A DNA stretch of 44,728 nucleotides from Candidatus Angelobacter sp. Gp1-AA117 (GTDB taxonomy: Bacteria > Acidobacteriota > Terriglobia > Terriglobales > Acidobacteriaceae). This document shows positions 954 through 11,563 of this stretch, one piece after another. Every line of letters begins with the position of its first letter. Position 1 is the stretch's first letter. The DNA is taken from contig QHVI01000037.1 of NCBI GenBank assembly GCA_003223515.1, positions 1-44,728 on the forward strand. The letters are read 5' to 3'. The position numbers were made by a program, and so were the translations under genes. Below the pieces are notes generated by a model. The model had not been told where the DNA came from. It saw nothing but the letters and a program-made list of their open reading frames with translations, and searched no databases.

Positions 954-1065
954 TTTTACAGTTTTGGGCAGTCAATCAGCGGTGATTGGTGCCGGTAAAC
1001 TCCCTTATCGTCATTGACTCCCGAATCATCGGCAACCCGAAGTTGAGACTTCTCATAATTTCTCG

Positions 1066-1393
1066 GTGTAGATGATTTTGTAGCTGCCAAGGCCCAACGA
1101 CCTCACAAGTCAATAGGTCTCAACTCTGATGGCTGATCCAGATCGGATCGCCAAGACCGCCACTGTTTCTGGTTTTGGGGTGCGTCTGGCTTGGGCCCAA
1201 TGGGTCTAACGGTGAGCCTCTTTGAGTGACACGCCGAACGACCACCCAAAGAATTCATGAAACGGTTGGATGTTTCTTATCACTATGCGAATAGAAGCCG
1301 CCAGTAAGGCCGAGCCGAAATATGTTCTCCTCGCTAGAGACGCGGGTGAAACCACGGGCGGCTGATTCTGTATCGAGTGTAGATGATTTTGTA
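1066..1393. repeat. 17-bp exact direct repeat in similar contexts
   Basis: GTGTAGATGATTTTGTA occurs at 1066-1082 and again at 1377-1393. The flanks resemble each other loosely: TCTCG before and GCTGC after the first copy, ATCGA before and ACTG after the second. In minus-strand translation both copies fall in stretches reading LQNHLH in one frame. This may mark two decayed copies of a related sequence, but the similarity outside the 17-mer is weak. Confidence 0.4.
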
Positions 1394-1550
1394 ACTGTTG
1401 CTCCCTCAAAGAACTCGGCAGTTCGACAGTTCTCAATCTTGGGCGTCAACTGACTGGCCGAATCAGAGAGATGCCAGGGAGTATCACGGATATTGTCGTT
1501 CTGGTTGCTCACTTGGCTTTAGCAGCGGGTGTAATTCGCCAAATGTAAAA

Positions 1551-1705
1551 GCGCAGATTCAAGGATTCGGGATTCCCTGAATCTGCGCTCTCCTGATAAG
1601 TGTTCAGCGGCTATGATCAACAATCAAGAATTCATTTGAGAAATCAAAGTTGTTGATCTTTGAGGCTTTCGCAGCCTCAAAATCACCTACGCCGCTGAAG
1701 GCGGC
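1551..1705. repeat. Cluster of hairpins
   Basis: Consecutive inverted repeats: GCGCAGATTCA at 1551-1561 pairs with 1578-1588; GATCAACAA at 1615-1623 pairs with TTGTTGATC at 1650-1658; TTTGAGGCT at 1659-1667 pairs with AGCCTCAAA at 1673-1681 across a 5-nt loop; and GCCGC/GCGGC at 1691-1705. The third looks terminator-like but lacks a long T-run. No gene ends nearby, so they may be ends or structures of a lost mobile element. Confidence 0.45.
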
Positions 1706-2094
1706 AAACCAGAAATTACTCGTAAGTTATTGAAAGTATTAGTCGGCTCTGGCGGACGATTTTAGAACTTTCGATTTAACGGCAGTTTAGCGTGTCAACA
1801 GAATTCCCCATTCTATCTTCCTACTCCATGGGTTGAATGTGTGTCTACACCAATCCCGCGCCACCATTTTCCCAATTTTATCCAGCCCTTCTGGCTTTAT
1901 TTTTCAGGTTTTTCCGTCGAACTGCTCAATCCCAAAAGAATTCCAGAGGAGCACTCAGGTCAACTCAGGCCGTACCCCCTGGACTTCTGCCGGCCATCTC
2001 CTTTCACACTAAGCAAGTACTCAACTATTTTCTTGCGTTTCCAACACATCTTACCTAATATCTTGCTTTCACCTTTGAGCTAGAATCGCAATTA

Positions 2095-2228
2095 TTTAGC
2101 GTGTTTCGGAGCGTAGGAATTGCTGCTTTTTCGACGAATCGGCGGAACTGTAGTAACGCAGTGGTCAAAATCAGCCCACGCAACACTGCACCATAAGTTA
2201 TTGATTCTACTGAATCAAACACGCTAAA
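2095..2228. repeat. 12-bp perfect inverted repeat bounding about 134 bp
   Basis: TTTAGCGTGTTT at 2095-2106 is the exact reverse complement of AAACACGCTAAA at 2217-2228. A third partial copy, TTTAGCGTGT, sits at 1786-1795 in the same orientation as the left arm. The enclosed DNA has no gene. It resembles a small non-autonomous element or an IS scar. It ends 76 bp before the ion-channel gene, so it could also carry that gene's promoter. Confidence 0.4.
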
Positions 2229-2304
2229 CAAATATCTAGAATTTCTATAGGCTGGTTCCAGATTGTCAGAGGAATGCTTCGTAAAATAGTCCCCAATCGA
2301 CACT

Positions 2305-4656
2305 ATGCAATTCTTAAGAGCTAAGAGCCTGATAGCACGATTGAATCAATTAAGAACACTGGCACATAATCTCTCAGGTTTATTCTTCGCATTATTTCAA
2401 CGAGCTAGGTCATTATTCGGATATCTCCTACATATTTTTTCATGGTTCATGTCTTCATTGGGAAGAGTCACATTGGCTATTATGAGGACTGTGCAGCGAC
2501 TGTCCGAGCATAAGCGCATCGCGGGAGGAATCGTAATTATTCTAATCTCAGTTGTTGTGCTTATTTCTTATTTGCACACGCCTAAAAAGACCACTTACTA
2601 TATTGCCTATGTTGGGAGATATCAGTCCCAGATCGATCAATTACAGGAAAACCTGCTCAAGGAGTATCTAGATGGCCTAAATAGACGAATACCAAATGCA
2701 CACTTCGAGTTGCACGTTTTCAGCATTAAGAAAACCGACACAATTTATGATTCACGGGAGGCATATCAAGCAATAGCAAATGATCCCAAAACCGTAATAG
2801 TGCTTGACAATACCTGGGGAGAGAATCTTGCACCTGTCATTGACTTAATTATTAGCCAGCAAATTCCTGTAATTTCCATGAATGCCGACAGACAAAATAA
2901 GGACTACCGGAATCAAGTTGCGTTTATCGGATATGATGATCATGTTCCCGAGAAGATAACGGTTTTTGCAAACAAAATTCTACGCAACCAAAAACAGCTT
3001 GTAGTTGCCGAAGATCAAACTATTTTTCCGTCAACTGCTGTGCTCATGCAAGCATTTCCCGAAACCAAATCTCTGATTATCCATAGTCGGAAATTCAATT
3101 CTGAAGATAATGCCGTGCTTGACAGTGCCATACAACAGCTAGACTGCGGCACATCTAACGAAAGACGCACTCTACTTTTGAATACGCACTGGCTATGGGG
3201 TGAAAAAATTCTCCATACTGTAAATTCAAATTGCCGAAATGTTGACATACTTGGTGGACCATATATCATTGACAAAAAGTTAAAGGAGAAATCGGAAGAA
3301 GAATCGGATGAAGAAGCAGAGAAGGCAGATGAGATCAGCTTAGAGAATAACAATAGACTGATATTGTTCACGCGCAGCAGGGATGCTGTTAATAATCGGG
3401 TTCACCACGAAGCAGCGAATCTTAAGGAGTCATGGCCTCAGGTTAACACAGAATTGTTCGTTGAACGATGCATTCATGCGATTACAATTATTGAGCAATG
3501 CCTGGGTGTCATCAAGAGCAATACAAGTCGCAAGAATATTCCGAAATCTAAACAATCATTATCTAAGCAATCATTTGTTGCGGCCTTCAAACAAATGACG
3601 AACCATACATTTTTCAGGGATGATGGAGCGTATAGCGAGGTTTATTCATTTGATAACAAGCTCCGGTTGGCGGACGACAGGATCTTTGAACAATATTTTA
3701 ATGACGAAGTATCCTCTTATCCTCAACAATTGAATTCTGAAGACAAAGTGATACCCAACATTCACATAGGGGTGGAGGACATTCAGATAAGCTCTATCGA
3801 TGTAAAAAACAGCTCGTTTCACGCACATTTTATTTTCTGGTGGAAATGCAATAATCCGGAGGTCGATCCCAATAAGTATTTATTTTTTCGAAATCAGACA
3901 AAAGGCGACCTTGCAGCAACCGGAAATGCAGAGTTGCTTTTGACTGAGGAGCACGGAGCAGAAGGCAAATATCAATTATTTAAAGTTTCTGGAGACTTCG
4001 AGATGCAGGCAGATCTTACACGATATCCGCTTGATGGACAGGAAGTCACCATCGAATTAGCAGCTGTGTACCCGCGCGAAACTGTGCAGGTTTCATTTGA
4101 TGAGAAAAGTTCCAAGCGGCTCGATAAAAAAGTCCGGGTCAGTTCAAACGAGTGGGATAAAGAAGACTCTTATTTTACGGTGGACAACGTTTTGGGTGAA
4201 TCACTCGGGGGGAACGCCGCGTCCGCAGCCACGAAGCATCAAGTATTCGAAACTCTGAACATCCGGACGAAAATCAGGAGAAATCCCATTTATTCCTACA
4301 TCACAATCATTATCCCATTGCTGATGATAGGCCTTGTAGCCACAGGCGTTCTATATGTGAGAGACAGCTCCTTTGAGAGCATCGGTCATGTTTGCGTAGT
4401 CATTTTTCTTGCGATTGCGACATATCGAATTACATTTGCTGAACTCATTCCGAATGCAGGACACCTTACTGTAGCCGATAAACTACTGTTTGGAGCATTT
4501 GTTACGATTTTTATTGTTTTTTCAAAGGTGATCATCCTGAACTCCGGTATTGTCCCTGTGCGGTTTGAAGCCTGGATCAAGGACCGAACTCTGACGATCG
4601 GATCTGTCGGATTGATCATGTATTGTGTAATGGCAGTCCTCGCGCTTGTCAGATGA
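2305..4656 (+). CDS. Pentameric ligand-gated ion channel fused to a periplasmic-binding-like domain
   Basis: The 783-aa protein has, in order: a membrane anchor at about 73-90 (possibly with another hydrophobic helix near 38-52); a mixed alpha/beta domain at about 97-440 resembling type-I periplasmic binding proteins (YYIAYVGRYQSQI, IPVISMNADRQN, VAFIGYDDH), with a Glu-rich insert at 328-347; a pLGIC extracellular domain at about 483-658; and four TM helices M1 661-684, M2 690-712, M3 722-745, M4 763-782. Diagnostic features are the beta1-beta2 pattern ending in FWWKCN, the Pro-loop DLTRYPLDGQE with P575 and D577 and no Cys pair, and an M2 that aligns without gaps to GLIC as I remember it: E691 at -2', H695 at 2', L702 at 9', and P716 in the M2-M3 loop. 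It is expected to form a ligand-gated pore in the inner membrane, probably cation-selective. Codon use is AT-rich, unlike the later genes. The ATG at 2305 has no clear Shine-Dalgarno sequence. Confidence 0.88.
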   Translation: MQFLRAKSLIARLNQLRTLAHNLSGLFFALFQRARSLFGYLLHIFSWFMSSLGRVTLAIMRTVQRLSEHKRIAGGIVIILISVVVLISYLHTPKKTTYYIAYVGRYQSQIDQLQENLLKEYLDGLNRRIPNAHFELHVFSIKKTDTIYDSREAYQAIANDPKTVIVLDNTWGENLAPVIDLIISQQIPVISMNADRQNKDYRNQVAFIGYDDHVPEKITVFANKILRNQKQLVVAEDQTIFPSTAVLMQAFPETKSLIIHSRKFNSEDNAVLDSAIQQLDCGTSNERRTLLLNTHWLWGEKILHTVNSNCRNVDILGGPYIIDKKLKEKSEEESDEEAEKADEISLENNNRLILFTRSRDAVNNRVHHEAANLKESWPQVNTELFVERCIHAITIIEQCLGVIKSNTSRKNIPKSKQSLSKQSFVAAFKQMTNHTFFRDDGAYSEVYSFDNKLRLADDRIFEQYFNDEVSSYPQQLNSEDKVIPNIHIGVEDIQISSIDVKNSSFHAHFIFWWKCNNPEVDPNKYLFFRNQTKGDLAATGNAELLLTEEHGAEGKYQLFKVSGDFEMQADLTRYPLDGQEVTIELAAVYPRETVQVSFDEKSSKRLDKKVRVSSNEWDKEDSYFTVDNVLGESLGGNAASAATKHQVFETLNIRTKIRRNPIYSYITIIIPLLMIGLVATGVLYVRDSSFESIGHVCVVIFLAIATYRITFAELIPNAGHLTVADKLLFGAFVTIFIVFSKVIILNSGIVPVRFEAWIKDRTLTIGSVGLIMYCVMAVLALVR

Positions 4657-4942: not shown

Positions 4943-7918
4943 TCACCGAACGGATGCGTTATGCATGCCAGCTGCTATAACGGCATCGCAGCCAATGCGC
5001 TGATCGGCATGCTCAATAATCTCTTGACTGAATGAGAGATGGAGGCGGCTGGCGCTCCGGCAGTTGATCCAATAATACAGCTTTGAAGGAAAGCGCATGT
5101 CCGCGCGGCCAAGAGGCTGCTCACCTTTAAAGTCTTTGATCAGAAGGTCTGCGCCTTGTTGTCCGAGTTCCGTCCTGTTGGGGCTTATGCCGAGTGCAGT
5201 CAGTCCATCAGGTTCAACATCTTCCCGCCTCGTAGCTACAAAGATCCGGGTTTGCAGCACCTTGGGATACACGTCCGCCTGCTCAAATGGATACCACCAA
5301 AAATACACCTGAGCAGGATCAGGGAAATCATCATCGCGCAGACGGTGGTCAATGCCCGTTATCAGCACAGGTGGCGTAAACTTGATTCTTCTGAGAGCAG
5401 CCGCCATATATTCGTTCTGCGGAAACCCCGCTTCATATACATAGTGCAGGGTGTGGTCTGGCACGATTTTTTGTGCCAGCCGGACCCAATCTTCCGGATG
5501 CCGAACAAATGCGACTACTCCAATTGGGAGAGGATCATTTCGATTGGTGGCCTGCGTGATCAGCCCTGCAGCCAGGGGATCGGTCAGTCCTATACCAATC
5601 AAGCGATATCGGCCCAGCATAGGTCCGAATCTGGCCTTGGCCCGCATTGAAGCAGGTGTACCAATCGCGATAATGTAGTTGATATCTTCTGTAGAAAAGT
5701 TAGCCAGTTTACGTTCGATGTCATCCAGGGTGTTGTTCCATGCTCTCTCGCTGTCTGGTCCGTTTCCGAGTGGCCCTTCCCTGAGGTAAGAAACGTCACC
5801 AATAATGTCAGGGTATTTGACCAGGGTGTTATAGCATGCAGACTGCATGTCGGCCATGGTCTGCATGTCTCCACTTAGCAGAAAAACTGCGTTGACTTTT
5901 GGATGCGGCAATTGCGGATGATACTGGCTTGCACCACTGGGTTCGGAATCTTGCCCAGCAACTGAGTTGGTTTTTGAATGTGGCGGCGGTTTATGCGCCC
6001 AGAGTATAACTGTCACAACAATAACAAGGGCCGCAACGCCTGAAGCCCATCTGAAGACATGAGCAAATTCCCGCTGCGGCACAACAGGAGTTGGCCGAAT
6101 CCCCACAGGAGCAGGCCGGGAAGGCGTAGGCAGTGCCGCCAGCGCATTCTCCAGCGCCTCGCGCATCTCCACATCCAGCTCTTGTGCTTCGTTCAGGCAT
6201 GCTTTAGCCAGTTCATAGATTCCAGAGGCAACAGTCGCATTCTTTAGCTTCTCCAGGCAGGCTGCGCATATTGAGGTTCCATCCGCCTGGGCAACGTAGA
6301 GCCTGATAACCCCATGCCACCATTCATCTCCTACCCGCTCCGCGAGGTTTTCTGCCTTTTTTGTGCAATAAACCGCCGTCAGGTATTCCTGCAAGGTCTT
6401 ATGAGCAAACCCATATTTTCCGTTCTCTTTCTTCAGCAGTAACCCGCTGTCCTCTTCAATATCTTTGAGAAAAGCTTCCGGATCTGTGCCCGGACTTACA
6501 CGCTCCAGAGTGTCCTTGATAGTTTTAAAGGTTTGTGCCGCCTCCATCTCCTGAGTGCGGCCGGTCATCATGGCGTAAGCCAGCGGTTCAAGCACGCACC
6601 GCTTCTGGCTTGTAGCCAGCCCGGAACGCACAGGACTGAAATCCCTGCGGGAGAGAAATACTTCCCAGATGTCCCGGTACAGTTCGATTTGCCGTTCAGG
6701 CAGTTTGCCGCGAAAGCGGTGGATCGTAGCCATCATTGTCAGCAGGAGGGGATTGACTGCGAGTTGGTTCAGCTCCCTGGAAGCGGAGACGCGTTCCAGC
6801 AGGTCGTGAGCATCTCTTGTAGCTTCTGCCCGAACTACCGGCGTGTCGCGACGGGCCTCGGCCACCGCGTTGGCTATACACCAGTTCTCGACAAACTGGC
6901 TGATTTGCTGCTGCCTGAAGGGGTGAATGATCAATCTGTGAACATCGGCTATTCGCTGCGCAGACACTCGCGGCCTGGAGGTAATAATGAACTGGTTTTT
7001 ATGATATGTCCGCATCTGCTGTTCGAGCCAGCCTTCAACAGAAGCGTACATTTCAGGATCTGCAACCTCATCCAGGCCATCGAACAGCACAATGCATTTG
7101 CCTTTTCTCAGTTGGGATTCAAACCAGCTAAGAGGCACCGGCTCACTCATTTCCCGGTACAGCTTGCTCTGTTTTATGACTTCGATGAAGGGCAGGTCAG
7201 GATTATCTTTGATATCGCTTACGTGATGGCGCAGTGCCAGAAGTATAGGAAGCTTGCGTGGCGCGTGATGTTTCCTTCGCTGTTTAGGCTGCGCCAGAAC
7301 CAGCGCTATATGCCGCAACAGGGTGGTCTTACCGCCGCCAGGACGGCCAATAATCACGAGGTTTTCAGGAGTGGAATGGTTTTCTTCCTGCAGATAAGAC
7401 CAGATATGACTCCCTGCCAGTGGCTCCACGATATCGAGAGGAATAATGGACCCGGGCGGCAATTTAGGTGCCGGACTGACAAGCAGTTGCACAAAAACAT
7501 GCTGAAGTCTAAGAGCGAAAGTCCCTATCGTACTCAAAGCCTTCATATCAAAGTTGCGGCACTCGCTGATGACATGCTCGAGATATCTTCTGCGGTAGCC
7601 TCCAATCACCGTACGGACCACGTTATCAATTTCTGTTGCTATAGCCTTAATCCAGTCTCCCAGCAAGAGTTTCCCTATTTCCCGCACAATAAAGTACAAA
7701 GGCAACGCCATCAGGAAAGGAACAAAGAAATGCTGCCGGAAATATTCAACCGGTAGTGTCTTCAGAAGAGATCCACCTACCAATGACGAGGCTGCAAGTT
7801 GGACAATATGGCCGAGTATGGTCCATGTACCCCGTGGGGGACGATCTGGTATTTCAGGGACATAAGTCTGGTTCTGGTGCGAAAAATGGTATCCGATGCA
7901 TACTTGGATTTCAATCAA
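4943..7918 (-). CDS. Membrane NACHT/STAND NTPase with C-terminal periplasmic substrate-binding domain
   Basis: The 991-aa product has two hydrophobic helices (about 33-52 and 64-82), then a NACHT-type P-loop NTPase: Walker A GRPGGGKT at 191-198, Walker B IVLFDGLDE at 276-284, sensor-like ITSRPR at 312-317, and the winged-helix-like GFAHKTLQEYL near 503-513. A Pro-rich linker leads to a third TM helix (622-640). Residues about 675-985 match the ABC_sub_bind/TrpX type of periplasmic binding fold: YIIAIGTPAS, IGIGLTDPLAAGL, and the ending ELGQQGADLLIKDF then KLYYWINCRSAS. The predicted topology puts NACHT in the cytoplasm and the binding domain in the periplasm, a transmembrane sensor-ATPase. 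The start is uncertain: TTG at 7918 has no good ribosome binding site, and the frame stays open upstream to a stop at 8078-8080 without a standard start codon. It is convergent with the ion-channel gene. Confidence 0.85.
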   Translation of the reverse strand: MIEIQVCIGYHFSHQNQTYVPEIPDRPPRGTWTILGHIVQLAASSLVGGSLLKTLPVEYFRQHFFVPFLMALPLYFIVREIGKLLLGDWIKAIATEIDNVVRTVIGGYRRRYLEHVISECRNFDMKALSTIGTFALRLQHVFVQLLVSPAPKLPPGSIIPLDIVEPLAGSHIWSYLQEENHSTPENLVIIGRPGGGKTTLLRHIALVLAQPKQRRKHHAPRKLPILLALRHHVSDIKDNPDLPFIEVIKQSKLYREMSEPVPLSWFESQLRKGKCIVLFDGLDEVADPEMYASVEGWLEQQMRTYHKNQFIITSRPRVSAQRIADVHRLIIHPFRQQQISQFVENWCIANAVAEARRDTPVVRAEATRDAHDLLERVSASRELNQLAVNPLLLTMMATIHRFRGKLPERQIELYRDIWEVFLSRRDFSPVRSGLATSQKRCVLEPLAYAMMTGRTQEMEAAQTFKTIKDTLERVSPGTDPEAFLKDIEEDSGLLLKKENGKYGFAHKTLQEYLTAVYCTKKAENLAERVGDEWWHGVIRLYVAQADGTSICAACLEKLKNATVASGIYELAKACLNEAQELDVEMREALENALAALPTPSRPAPVGIRPTPVVPQREFAHVFRWASGVAALVIVVTVILWAHKPPPHSKTNSVAGQDSEPSGASQYHPQLPHPKVNAVFLLSGDMQTMADMQSACYNTLVKYPDIIGDVSYLREGPLGNGPDSERAWNNTLDDIERKLANFSTEDINYIIAIGTPASMRAKARFGPMLGRYRLIGIGLTDPLAAGLITQATNRNDPLPIGVVAFVRHPEDWVRLAQKIVPDHTLHYVYEAGFPQNEYMAAALRRIKFTPPVLITGIDHRLRDDDFPDPAQVYFWWYPFEQADVYPKVLQTRIFVATRREDVEPDGLTALGISPNRTELGQQGADLLIKDFKGEQPLGRADMRFPSKLYYWINCRSASRLHLSFSQEIIEHADQRIGCDAVIAAGMHNASVR

Positions 7919-8860: not shown

Positions 8861-11563
8861 TTAATTCTTCGCCACGGTCACGTTGAACTGGTCATGCAAA
8901 AATTTGCTGGCTTCATCGCGTTCGGGTGAGGGTTTGTCGGCGGTGGCATTTAGATAAAGGACATACTGTTCGGCGGCGCCGTCGGTATCGCTACGCTGGG
9001 CGCGGCTGCGGGCTTCCTGGAGGATCTTTGCGGGTAGCGCTGCCGCTTTCTCGCGGACGATCTTCACCAGCTCATCACGCGCGGCAATCTCCTGATCGAT
9101 AAGGAATTGAGTTTCGTCAGGCTCGGGGTCCTGCTTGGTGACGCCCTCGGTATCTTCGGGCTTTACATTCTCCAGCACCACCGCGGATTTGTGGTTTTCT
9201 TTCCTGACCATGTCACCGGGGTCGATCACATTGCCGGACTGGTCGGTAATGCGGAAGCCTACGTTGATCAGCGCCGATACTTCGATGTTCTTGCGGGTGT
9301 AGTTGTAGGGCTCGATGACAAGCTCGGTTTTGGTTTGATCGAGGGTTTCAAGTTTATGGCGCGCGTCGTCGGACAGTTTCTGGGCGGTCTGCACGGCGTC
9401 ATTGGCGGCGGCGATGACTTCTTTCTTCTTATGCTGCGCCTGGGCGTCATTCAAAACGCGCTGGGCGTCGGCGAGTTGCTGTTTGGCCGCGTCATAGTCG
9501 TGGCTGGCCTGCAGCCATTCAGGATTCTTCACCTCATGGGTTCCGGCGCGGTACTTGGAGGACAGTGTCTCGAGGTTAGTATTTTTGGCTACGCGGTGCT
9601 CGCGGATTTCGCCCACCAGCAGGAAGTTAGGTTGCGGAGCAGCGGCATCGGTCTGGGCGACGGCGCCGTCTTTCGGCTGGCGCACAACTTTCAGCGAGAG
9701 CGCAGAGGATTCGAGTCCGGCGGAGATGGCATCTGCCAACTGGTCGGTGAAGCCGGCGCTGTCGCGTCGTGAAGTCTGGTCGCGCAGCACAATGCCAACG
9801 GAAAGCCGTGAACGCAGTTGATACGCGGAAGAGTAGCGCGCAATTTCATCTTTGATGGCCTGCTCGTTGGTGGTGCGGTAGTGCTGCGCCTCAGTGAGGT
9901 AGAGCCAGCCTACGCCGATGCCGGAGCCCTGTGGCTTCTCCAGGTAGCGGCGGGCCTGGTCAACATAATAAGCGCTGAGCTTGTCATCGAGCAGGTCACG
10001 CTTGAGCTTGGTGGCCGGATCATCGGTGATGGCGCTGGCGCGGTCGAGCAGTTCGTGGGCTTCGCGCAGAGCGTCTTCATCGGCGCGGCTTCTGATGGGC
10101 AGATGGGTTTCCTGGAGCTTCTGCCCCCGGCGCAGGGCTGCCGTTGAAAAATCTTTGCTCAAAGCTGCCATCTGGTCGCTGACCAGCGGACGCTGCGATT
10201 CAGGCAGCTCGGCAAGCACGTTATAGGCCTCGATGAAATCTTTTTTGGCGGCATAATCCTGGCTCCATGCCAGTGCGCGTTCCACGGACTGGCGATCACG
10301 CATGGCCGCCAGTTGTGTCTCGGCATTGTTCAACGCGTCGCTCCCCTCCTGCTTATCACCGTGGATAGCGAGCGCCTTCTTGAACTCGGCTGTGGCCTGC
10401 TCCCACTGCTGTTTTCCGGCCAGGTCCTGTCCCTGGGTGAAGTGCCAGGAGTAAGCCGAGCCAATCACGGCATCGATGCGCGGCATTTCAGCGGCAAAGG
10501 CGCGATAAGGACCGAGAGCGGCCAGGGCATCGTCAAAACGTTTCTGGGCCAGCAGCGACTCAGCGTATTCCACGGCTGCGCCCAGCTTCTGTTCTTCCTT
10601 GATGATCTCGCGGTGCAGGTTGGCCACAGGCGCATATTCTGGAAGCACTTCGAGAAGACGTGTGGTGTGGCGCCGCGCAGTCACCAGTTGCGGCAATCCA
10701 TTGCTCTGGTCTTCCAGCGATTTGCGATAGGCAGCCAGGCGAAGACGGTCGATTTCGAGCAAGGTATCGAGTTCGTGCCCGATGGCTTCAAAGAGCTGCA
10801 CTGCCGGACGGTATCCGGCCACCGTGCGATTGGCCTCCTGGGCCTGCTCCCGCGCCTGCTTCAGCAGTGCGATATCCGGCTGGCGCGCAGCCAGCGACTT
10901 CTGATATTGCGCGAAAGTGGATTCTGCCGAGCGCTCGACGATCTCCGCAATGGCATTGCGCGCATTGGCCGCATGAGTAGAAGAAGGATTCTGGCGCAGG
11001 AAGTCCTGCCAGTCTGTCATGGTGTTGGCGCGCTGCGCTCGCAGGTAATCGGCGAGTTCAGTATCGGGCGCGGCGATGAAGATGAGTTGCGTCCCTGGCT
11101 TGAGTGCCGGAAGACCGATACCGGGTGCGGCTGAAAAGATCCCTGTACCTTGCAGCACGGTCTGCCCGGCAGCTTCAGCAGGCGTGAGTTCGGTAACGCC
11201 GATGAATTTCACACCGTTGGGAACGATGCAGACATGCTCGGAATTCACATTCAGGGTGAGATTGCCATGGGCGTCGCGATCTAGTGATGTGCCTGCCGCC
11301 GGTTGGATATGCGGCATGCCGTCATAGGTGCGCTTGTCGAATTTCGTGAGGCCGTCACAGACGCGCAGATCAGTCTTGCCATTGAACATGAGCCCTGTGA
11401 CCTGTACGGAGGCGGGTCCTGACGGCGTGTCATACAGGATAATCGCAGTCACGGACGGGGCGCTGTCTTTGGCCGCAACGGGGAGGCAGAGCACCAGCAG
11501 AGCAGTACATAGCAGGTACGCACTGGTGCTGAGCCGGGATCTGGGCGAAAGGCTTGCGATCAT
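8861..11563 (-). CDS. Exported helical-repeat protein of unknown function (900 aa)
   Basis: The N-terminus has a Sec signal peptide (hydrophobic core YLLCTALLVLCLPVAA, about 16-31). Residues about 35-170 form a beta-rich domain concerned with a parameter string (TLNVNSEHVCIVPNGVKF). From about 180 to 560 there are TPR-like helical repeats rich in Ala, Gln and Arg (WQDFLRQNPSSTHAANARNA, then QWEQATAEFKKALAIHGDKQ). Residues about 620-800 contain strands plus a coiled coil (YDAAKQQLADAQRVLNDAQA). The C-terminus again looks TPR-like (AAEQYVLYLNATADKPSPE). The family has no name I can give; the layout suggests a periplasmic scaffold. It is divergent from the kinase at 11855, with a repeat element between them. 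The ATG at 11563 is followed directly by a credible signal peptide. Confidence 0.8.
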   Translation of the reverse strand: MIASLSPRSRLSTSAYLLCTALLVLCLPVAAKDSAPSVTAIILYDTPSGPASVQVTGLMFNGKTDLRVCDGLTKFDKRTYDGMPHIQPAAGTSLDRDAHGNLTLNVNSEHVCIVPNGVKFIGVTELTPAEAAGQTVLQGTGIFSAAPGIGLPALKPGTQLIFIAAPDTELADYLRAQRANTMTDWQDFLRQNPSSTHAANARNAIAEIVERSAESTFAQYQKSLAARQPDIALLKQAREQAQEANRTVAGYRPAVQLFEAIGHELDTLLEIDRLRLAAYRKSLEDQSNGLPQLVTARRHTTRLLEVLPEYAPVANLHREIIKEEQKLGAAVEYAESLLAQKRFDDALAALGPYRAFAAEMPRIDAVIGSAYSWHFTQGQDLAGKQQWEQATAEFKKALAIHGDKQEGSDALNNAETQLAAMRDRQSVERALAWSQDYAAKKDFIEAYNVLAELPESQRPLVSDQMAALSKDFSTAALRRGQKLQETHLPIRSRADEDALREAHELLDRASAITDDPATKLKRDLLDDKLSAYYVDQARRYLEKPQGSGIGVGWLYLTEAQHYRTTNEQAIKDEIARYSSAYQLRSRLSVGIVLRDQTSRRDSAGFTDQLADAISAGLESSALSLKVVRQPKDGAVAQTDAAAPQPNFLLVGEIREHRVAKNTNLETLSSKYRAGTHEVKNPEWLQASHDYDAAKQQLADAQRVLNDAQAQHKKKEVIAAANDAVQTAQKLSDDARHKLETLDQTKTELVIEPYNYTRKNIEVSALINVGFRITDQSGNVIDPGDMVRKENHKSAVVLENVKPEDTEGVTKQDPEPDETQFLIDQEIAARDELVKIVREKAAALPAKILQEARSRAQRSDTDGAAEQYVLYLNATADKPSPERDEASKFLHDQFNVTVAKN

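Follow-up and report, generated by a model that had tools for sequence, protein, structure and literature searches.

Here, we report that a gene at positions 2305 to 4656 of a 44,728-nucleotide contig of the soil bacterium Candidatus Angelobacter sp. Gp1-AA117 (QHVI01000037.1, assembly GCA_003223515.1; the window is this whole stretch) probably encodes an inner-membrane subunit of the pentameric ligand-gated ion channel (pLGIC) superfamily, with an extra, membrane-anchored periplasmic domain of the type-I periplasmic binding protein (PBP-I) kind that would act on gating. A preliminary description of the DNA had proposed a channel with its own binding domain at this place, and an intact gene with a pLGIC core is indeed found there. 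The gene and its parts are:

2305..4656, forward strand: whole channel gene, 783 amino acids, with a cationic N-terminal region, a transmembrane anchor, a binding-protein-like domain and the pLGIC core
2305..2517, forward strand: cationic N-terminal region, residues 1-71, with 11 Lys/Arg and 1 Asp/Glu
2518..2577, forward strand: hydrophobic signal-anchor, residues 72-91, 20 residues, mean hydropathy up to 2.8
2593..3714, forward strand: probable type-I periplasmic-binding-protein domain, residues 97 to about 470, with support for lobe 1
2767..2937, forward strand: Peripla_BP_4 match (lobe 1), residues 155-211, below the curated cut-off
3283..3345, forward strand: acidic insert KEKSEEESDEEAEKADEISLE in the binding-protein-like domain, residues 327-347, from the sequence
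3757..4281, forward strand: pLGIC extracellular beta-sandwich, residues 485-659, ten strands in the model
4021..4044, forward strand: Cys-less Pro-loop RYPLDGQE, residues 573-580, from sequence alignment
4285..4650, forward strand: M1-M4, residues 661-782, helices 661-684, 688-711, 723-749 and 754-782 in the model

The region of residues 485-783 is a pLGIC core, distantly related to the channels of nerve receptors. The protein matches the profiles TIGR00860 (E 1.2e-8) and NF033918 (E 3.5e-4); both matches lie below the curated cut-offs, which are also missed by all five other scanned pLGICs of the same subfamily, and Pfam Neur_chan gave no match. Foldseek returned a prob of 1.00 in each of the 50 matches listed, all pLGICs, and with the TIGR00860 E-value this places the assignment far beyond chance. 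The predicted model of the channel part, of low confidence, is a ten-strand beta-sandwich followed by four helices; residues 483-783, whose failure to fold in this way would have spoken against the preliminary description, take the pLGIC fold in this model and have a profile match. The beta1-beta2 signature (DVKNSSF, starting at residue 499) and the Cys-less Pro-loop at 573 are both present, as the preliminary description had said. Pro and Asp of the Pro-loop are invariant in six of six sequences of one alignment and eight of eight of another, the pre-M1 Arg pair is residues 658-659, and the gating-critical residues of pLGICs are retained in the alignments. Glu691 (4375..4377, forward strand), just before M2, is by comparison with the M2 of GLIC a candidate cation-selectivity residue.

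The open reading frame begins with ATG, runs through 783 codons without a stop, and has the boundaries given before; the gene is a single copy in the 6.48-Mb genome, where a search of the own genome recovered 788 open codons. The start codon is uncertain, i.e., it may be residue 1 or an in-frame ATG at 49 or 60, and no clear ribosome-binding site was seen by eye before any of these candidates. Promoter and terminator scans gave nothing usable. Upstream, positions 777-2304 of the window (about 1.5 kb) contain no convincing gene, and the GC content there drops from about 50% to 40%.

Residues 1-71 are predicted to be cytoplasmic and the region is amphipathic around residue 50. Five strongly hydrophobic stretches are present in the protein (66-95, 660-688, 687-716, 719-754 and 761-783). 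Those from residue 660 on, with the four helices of the model, bear out the four transmembrane helices claimed earlier, and the extra segment at 72-91 fits the membrane anchor claimed for the binding domain. Since no signal-peptidase motif was seen near residues 72-91, this segment is read from its sequence as a probably uncleaved anchor, with the N-terminus inside. The topology fits the proposed protein: the N-terminus would be inside, the binding and channel domains as well as the C-terminus outside, with four more transmembrane helices after the anchor.

Residues 97 to about 470 are probably a divergent PBP-I domain, an assignment weaker than that of the pLGIC core. The top Pfam match of this region is Peripla_BP_4, with E values between 1.5e-4 and 9.7e-4 for the different stretches submitted, under the Pfam cut-off and covering lobe 1 only. 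NCBIfam gave no match to the domain, and the fetched loci (L125-L128 excluded) held no homolog of it beyond the own sequence. A Rossmann-like first lobe is seen in a weak model of the domain; the nearest structures to this low-confidence lobe-1 model are ribose-binding and LacI-type proteins, and 18 of the 20 best VIA-align rows have the PBP-I fold. Amino-terminal domains of NMDA and AMPA receptors also appear among the structural matches of the binding-domain models. Thus, the binding-protein-like domain of the preliminary description stands as probably type-I in its first lobe, while its size is nearer 370 residues than the 340 given; the acidic insert was correctly noticed (residues 327-347). 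Please note that in the alignment behind the full-length model the other five rows span the channel part only, so that in practice both models folded the binding domain from its single sequence. With the full-length model, 50 of 50 VIA-align matches listed are pLGICs, and since the channel fills this list, it is uninformative on the binding domain.

If this reading is right, the protein would be expected to form a homopentamer in the inner membrane, probably a cation-conducting one, and we infer a complete two-lobed binding-protein fold for the N-terminal domain. Its two lobes would shut on a small periplasmic solute; the five binding domains, placed over the extracellular domain of the channel itself, would thereby alter the gating, and ions would then cross the inner membrane.

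Such a design has precedents. Tasneem et al. (2004), in the available text (PMC549065), describe PBP-I domains ahead of pLGICs in Magnetospirillum and Bradyrhizobium, as well as Cache/MCP-N fusions and pLGIC neighborhoods with stand-alone PBP-II genes. Like the probable one of our protein, the type-I binding domain there is N-terminal to the pLGIC ligand-binding and four-transmembrane core; according to the same text, however, those fusions begin with a signal peptide, whereas ours has the 71-residue cationic region and the probably uncleaved anchor. They come from another phylum, and they are compared here by their description in that text. The present protein is probably of this kind: the complete pLGIC core is there, and the rest depends on the PBP-I assignment. 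That the arrangement as such is unusual, as the preliminary description had held, is not supported, given the fusions reported in 2004 (PMC549065, available text) and two similar proteins, L102 and L112, described below.

DeCLIC is a prokaryotic pLGIC whose extra N-terminal domain affects gating, as described in the available parts of two papers (PMC9897478, PMC12664993); it shares such a domain with our protein, but there it consists of two jelly-roll lobes and is not alpha/beta. According to the available text of the 2022 paper (PMC9897478), no family member other than DeCLIC has an extra N-terminal domain whose structure is known. ELIC and GLIC have the same extracellular and four-transmembrane fold as the present protein, but they are chains of about 300 residues with this core only, and the structural alignments listed give 12-17% identity. 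The amino-terminal domains of NMDA and AMPA receptors likewise place a PBP-I fold atop a ligand-gated channel, a likeness of design only. These receptors are tetrameric and their pore is unrelated to pLGICs. Searches of the open-licence literature, which leaves out most subscription papers, listed neither a structure nor a recording for any pLGIC that carries a PBP-type domain.

We used a profile of eight subfamily members, the present channel included, to search the phylum of a Deltaproteobacteria metagenome-assembled genome, where 75 of 282 genomes had matches. Thirty of the matches listed were fetched, mostly those with long frames, and 16 of these were domain-scanned. Peripla_BP_6 occurs with a pLGIC-type domain at two of the 16 loci:

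L102 (G1000:C188): 745-codon frame from this phylum
L112 (G872:C296), 981-3986, forward strand, also L124:10480-13485: one 1002-codon frame

L102 has a hydrophobic leader that ends in Cys, a binding domain likewise carrying an acidic insert, and a pLGIC whose channel part aligns with ours at E 2e-9; unlike ours, its binding domain matches Peripla_BP_6 strongly (E 3.8e-44), and its leader resembles that of a lipoprotein rather than a transmembrane anchor. In L112, a transmembrane segment, Peripla_BP_6 (1.7e-41) and a pLGIC-type extracellular domain (2.8e-5) are followed by an MscS-type channel (MS_channel_2nd, 1.3e-17), apparently a pore swap with the MscS domain in place of the pLGIC helices. 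A search of the 282 genomes with the extracellular part of L112 found no second protein of this type; one candidate for a second MscS-fused pLGIC domain (G889) was rejected, as it looks like out-of-frame noise. An NMT1_3/TAXI-type domain is fused in front of the pLGIC in six of the 16 (L094, L096, L098, L103, L104, L105; L096 below the Pfam cut-off), whereas in the available text of Tasneem et al. (PMC549065) PBP-II proteins are neighboring genes only. Five of the 16 (L090, L119, L120, L121, L122) carry a C-terminal SBP_bac_5 (OppA-type) domain after M4 in the same frame. Cache-type domains were found in three: L108 is above the dCache_1 cut-off, L107 is just under it and above that of MCP-like_PDC_1, and L110 is weak.

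Inspection by eye showed no binding protein in the operons of the related Acidobacteria channels L027 and L028. On plasmid pAB510b of Azospirillum sp. B510 (L035), a subfamily pLGIC lies in line with SBP_bac_5, TPR, alanine racemase and ABC_sub_bind genes; this is the one of five plasmid regions with annotated binding-protein neighbors, two of the five being without annotation. At another locus (L030:2109-4153), two subfamily pLGIC genes stand in tandem with overlapping ends, the second from 3164, possibly for a heteromeric channel.

The present protein itself is isolated. No close relatives were found in viral contigs, plasmids or phages, nor in genome contigs with the single protein as query. 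Besides the own genome, none of 99 related genomes matched, and all eight congeners were without a match; 9 of 395 genomes of the phylum and 6 of 398 of the class matched, four of the class matches belonging also to the phylum sample. All these matches begin at residue 473 or later and are thus confined to the channel part. In a search for the family, 13 of 396 phylum genomes, the own included, had pLGICs, and the other open frames have at most 478 codons. A tree was built from 72 channel domains, without duplicates and matches shorter than 200 residues (L112 among them). In it, the branch of our channel has a length of 2.71 and L102 is nearest by path length; node support is 0.007, so its place is not fixed. 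The GC content of the gene is 41.8%, against 54.2% for the window and 52.0-59.4% for seven other measured genes. A flanking gene, 8861-11563, has counterparts in three of the eight congeners, and the stretches around it in two of them (19.0 and 13.0 kb) show no trace of the channel gene or of its neighbor, a NACHT gene. Horizontal acquisition of the channel gene is likely.

It is rather unlikely that the N-terminal domain has an alpha/beta, Rossmann-like fold other than PBP-I, e.g., that of an interaction module, and is no solute sensor. The support is limited to lobe 1, the second half taking no clear shape in the models, and other alpha/beta folds score nearly as high for the lobe-1 model. 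Foldseek with the binding-domain model gave no match at E 0.001 or better, with lumazine synthase ranked first, and a Peripla_BP_6 profile (L102, L112, LivJ, LivK) did not separate the domain from shuffled sequences. Against this stand the top Pfam match, the VIA-align rows, and the independent existence of PBP-I/pLGIC fusions, both in the available text of Tasneem et al. (PMC549065) and in L102 and L112. That the import is decaying or non-functional, low-GC foreign DNA with an open frame for a protein which no longer gates, would agree with the low GC, the long branch and the absence from all congeners; we consider it very unlikely, as 783 codons are free of stops, the gating residues are kept and all four helices are still hydrophobic.

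Two further ideas involve the neighbor gene.

4943..7918, reverse strand: neighbor gene, outside the channel, with a NACHT NTPase, one transmembrane segment (by eye) and an ABC_sub_bind-like C-terminal domain

Its NACHT domain matches Pfam at E 4.9e-14, the antiphage EruA model at E 4.3e-10, far below the model cut-off, and its C-terminal ABC_sub_bind-like match has E 2.6e-4, also below cut-off; it is possibly a periplasm-sensing STAND protein. That two adjacent proteins probably both have periplasmic binding domains is suggestive. BLASTP found no similarity between the two domains, and hhalign of the single sequences is uninformative because RbsB against LivJ, a PBP-I pair, failed as well. 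Could the two genes form one conflict or death module, in which the pLGIC is a depolarizing effector and both proteins sense periplasmic signals through binding-protein domains? The domains of the neighbor, the lower GC of both genes than of the measured genes to their right, and their common absence around the flanking gene in two congeners speak for it. However, the two genes converge, 286 bases apart, and so are not one operon; among 100 related genomes, six others matched the NACHT query, each only in part, so that no second pair was seen there; and PADLOC had no match for the channel. Such a module is highly improbable. Also quite doubtful is the bolder idea of a separate, single-member pLGIC lineage with five transmembrane helices per subunit (25 per pentamer), where the ring of anchored binding domains, instead of the classical interfacial site, would be the primary agonist sensor, possibly with the NACHT protein as a signal-triggered depolarization module.

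We therefore keep to the reading of a pLGIC subunit with an anchored, probable PBP-I domain, i.e., a design known from sequence since 2004, in a protein that is divergent, isolated and probably imported. Such a protein would allow asking whether a clamshell sensor drives a Cys-loop-type pore, in parallel with the amino-terminal domains of glutamate receptors. Since the related loci join pLGIC domains to solute sensors of at least four classes (PBP-I, TAXI-type, SBP_bac_5, dCache), and in one of them the extracellular domain sits on an MscS-type pore, the evolution of sensor-pore coupling becomes open to comparison.
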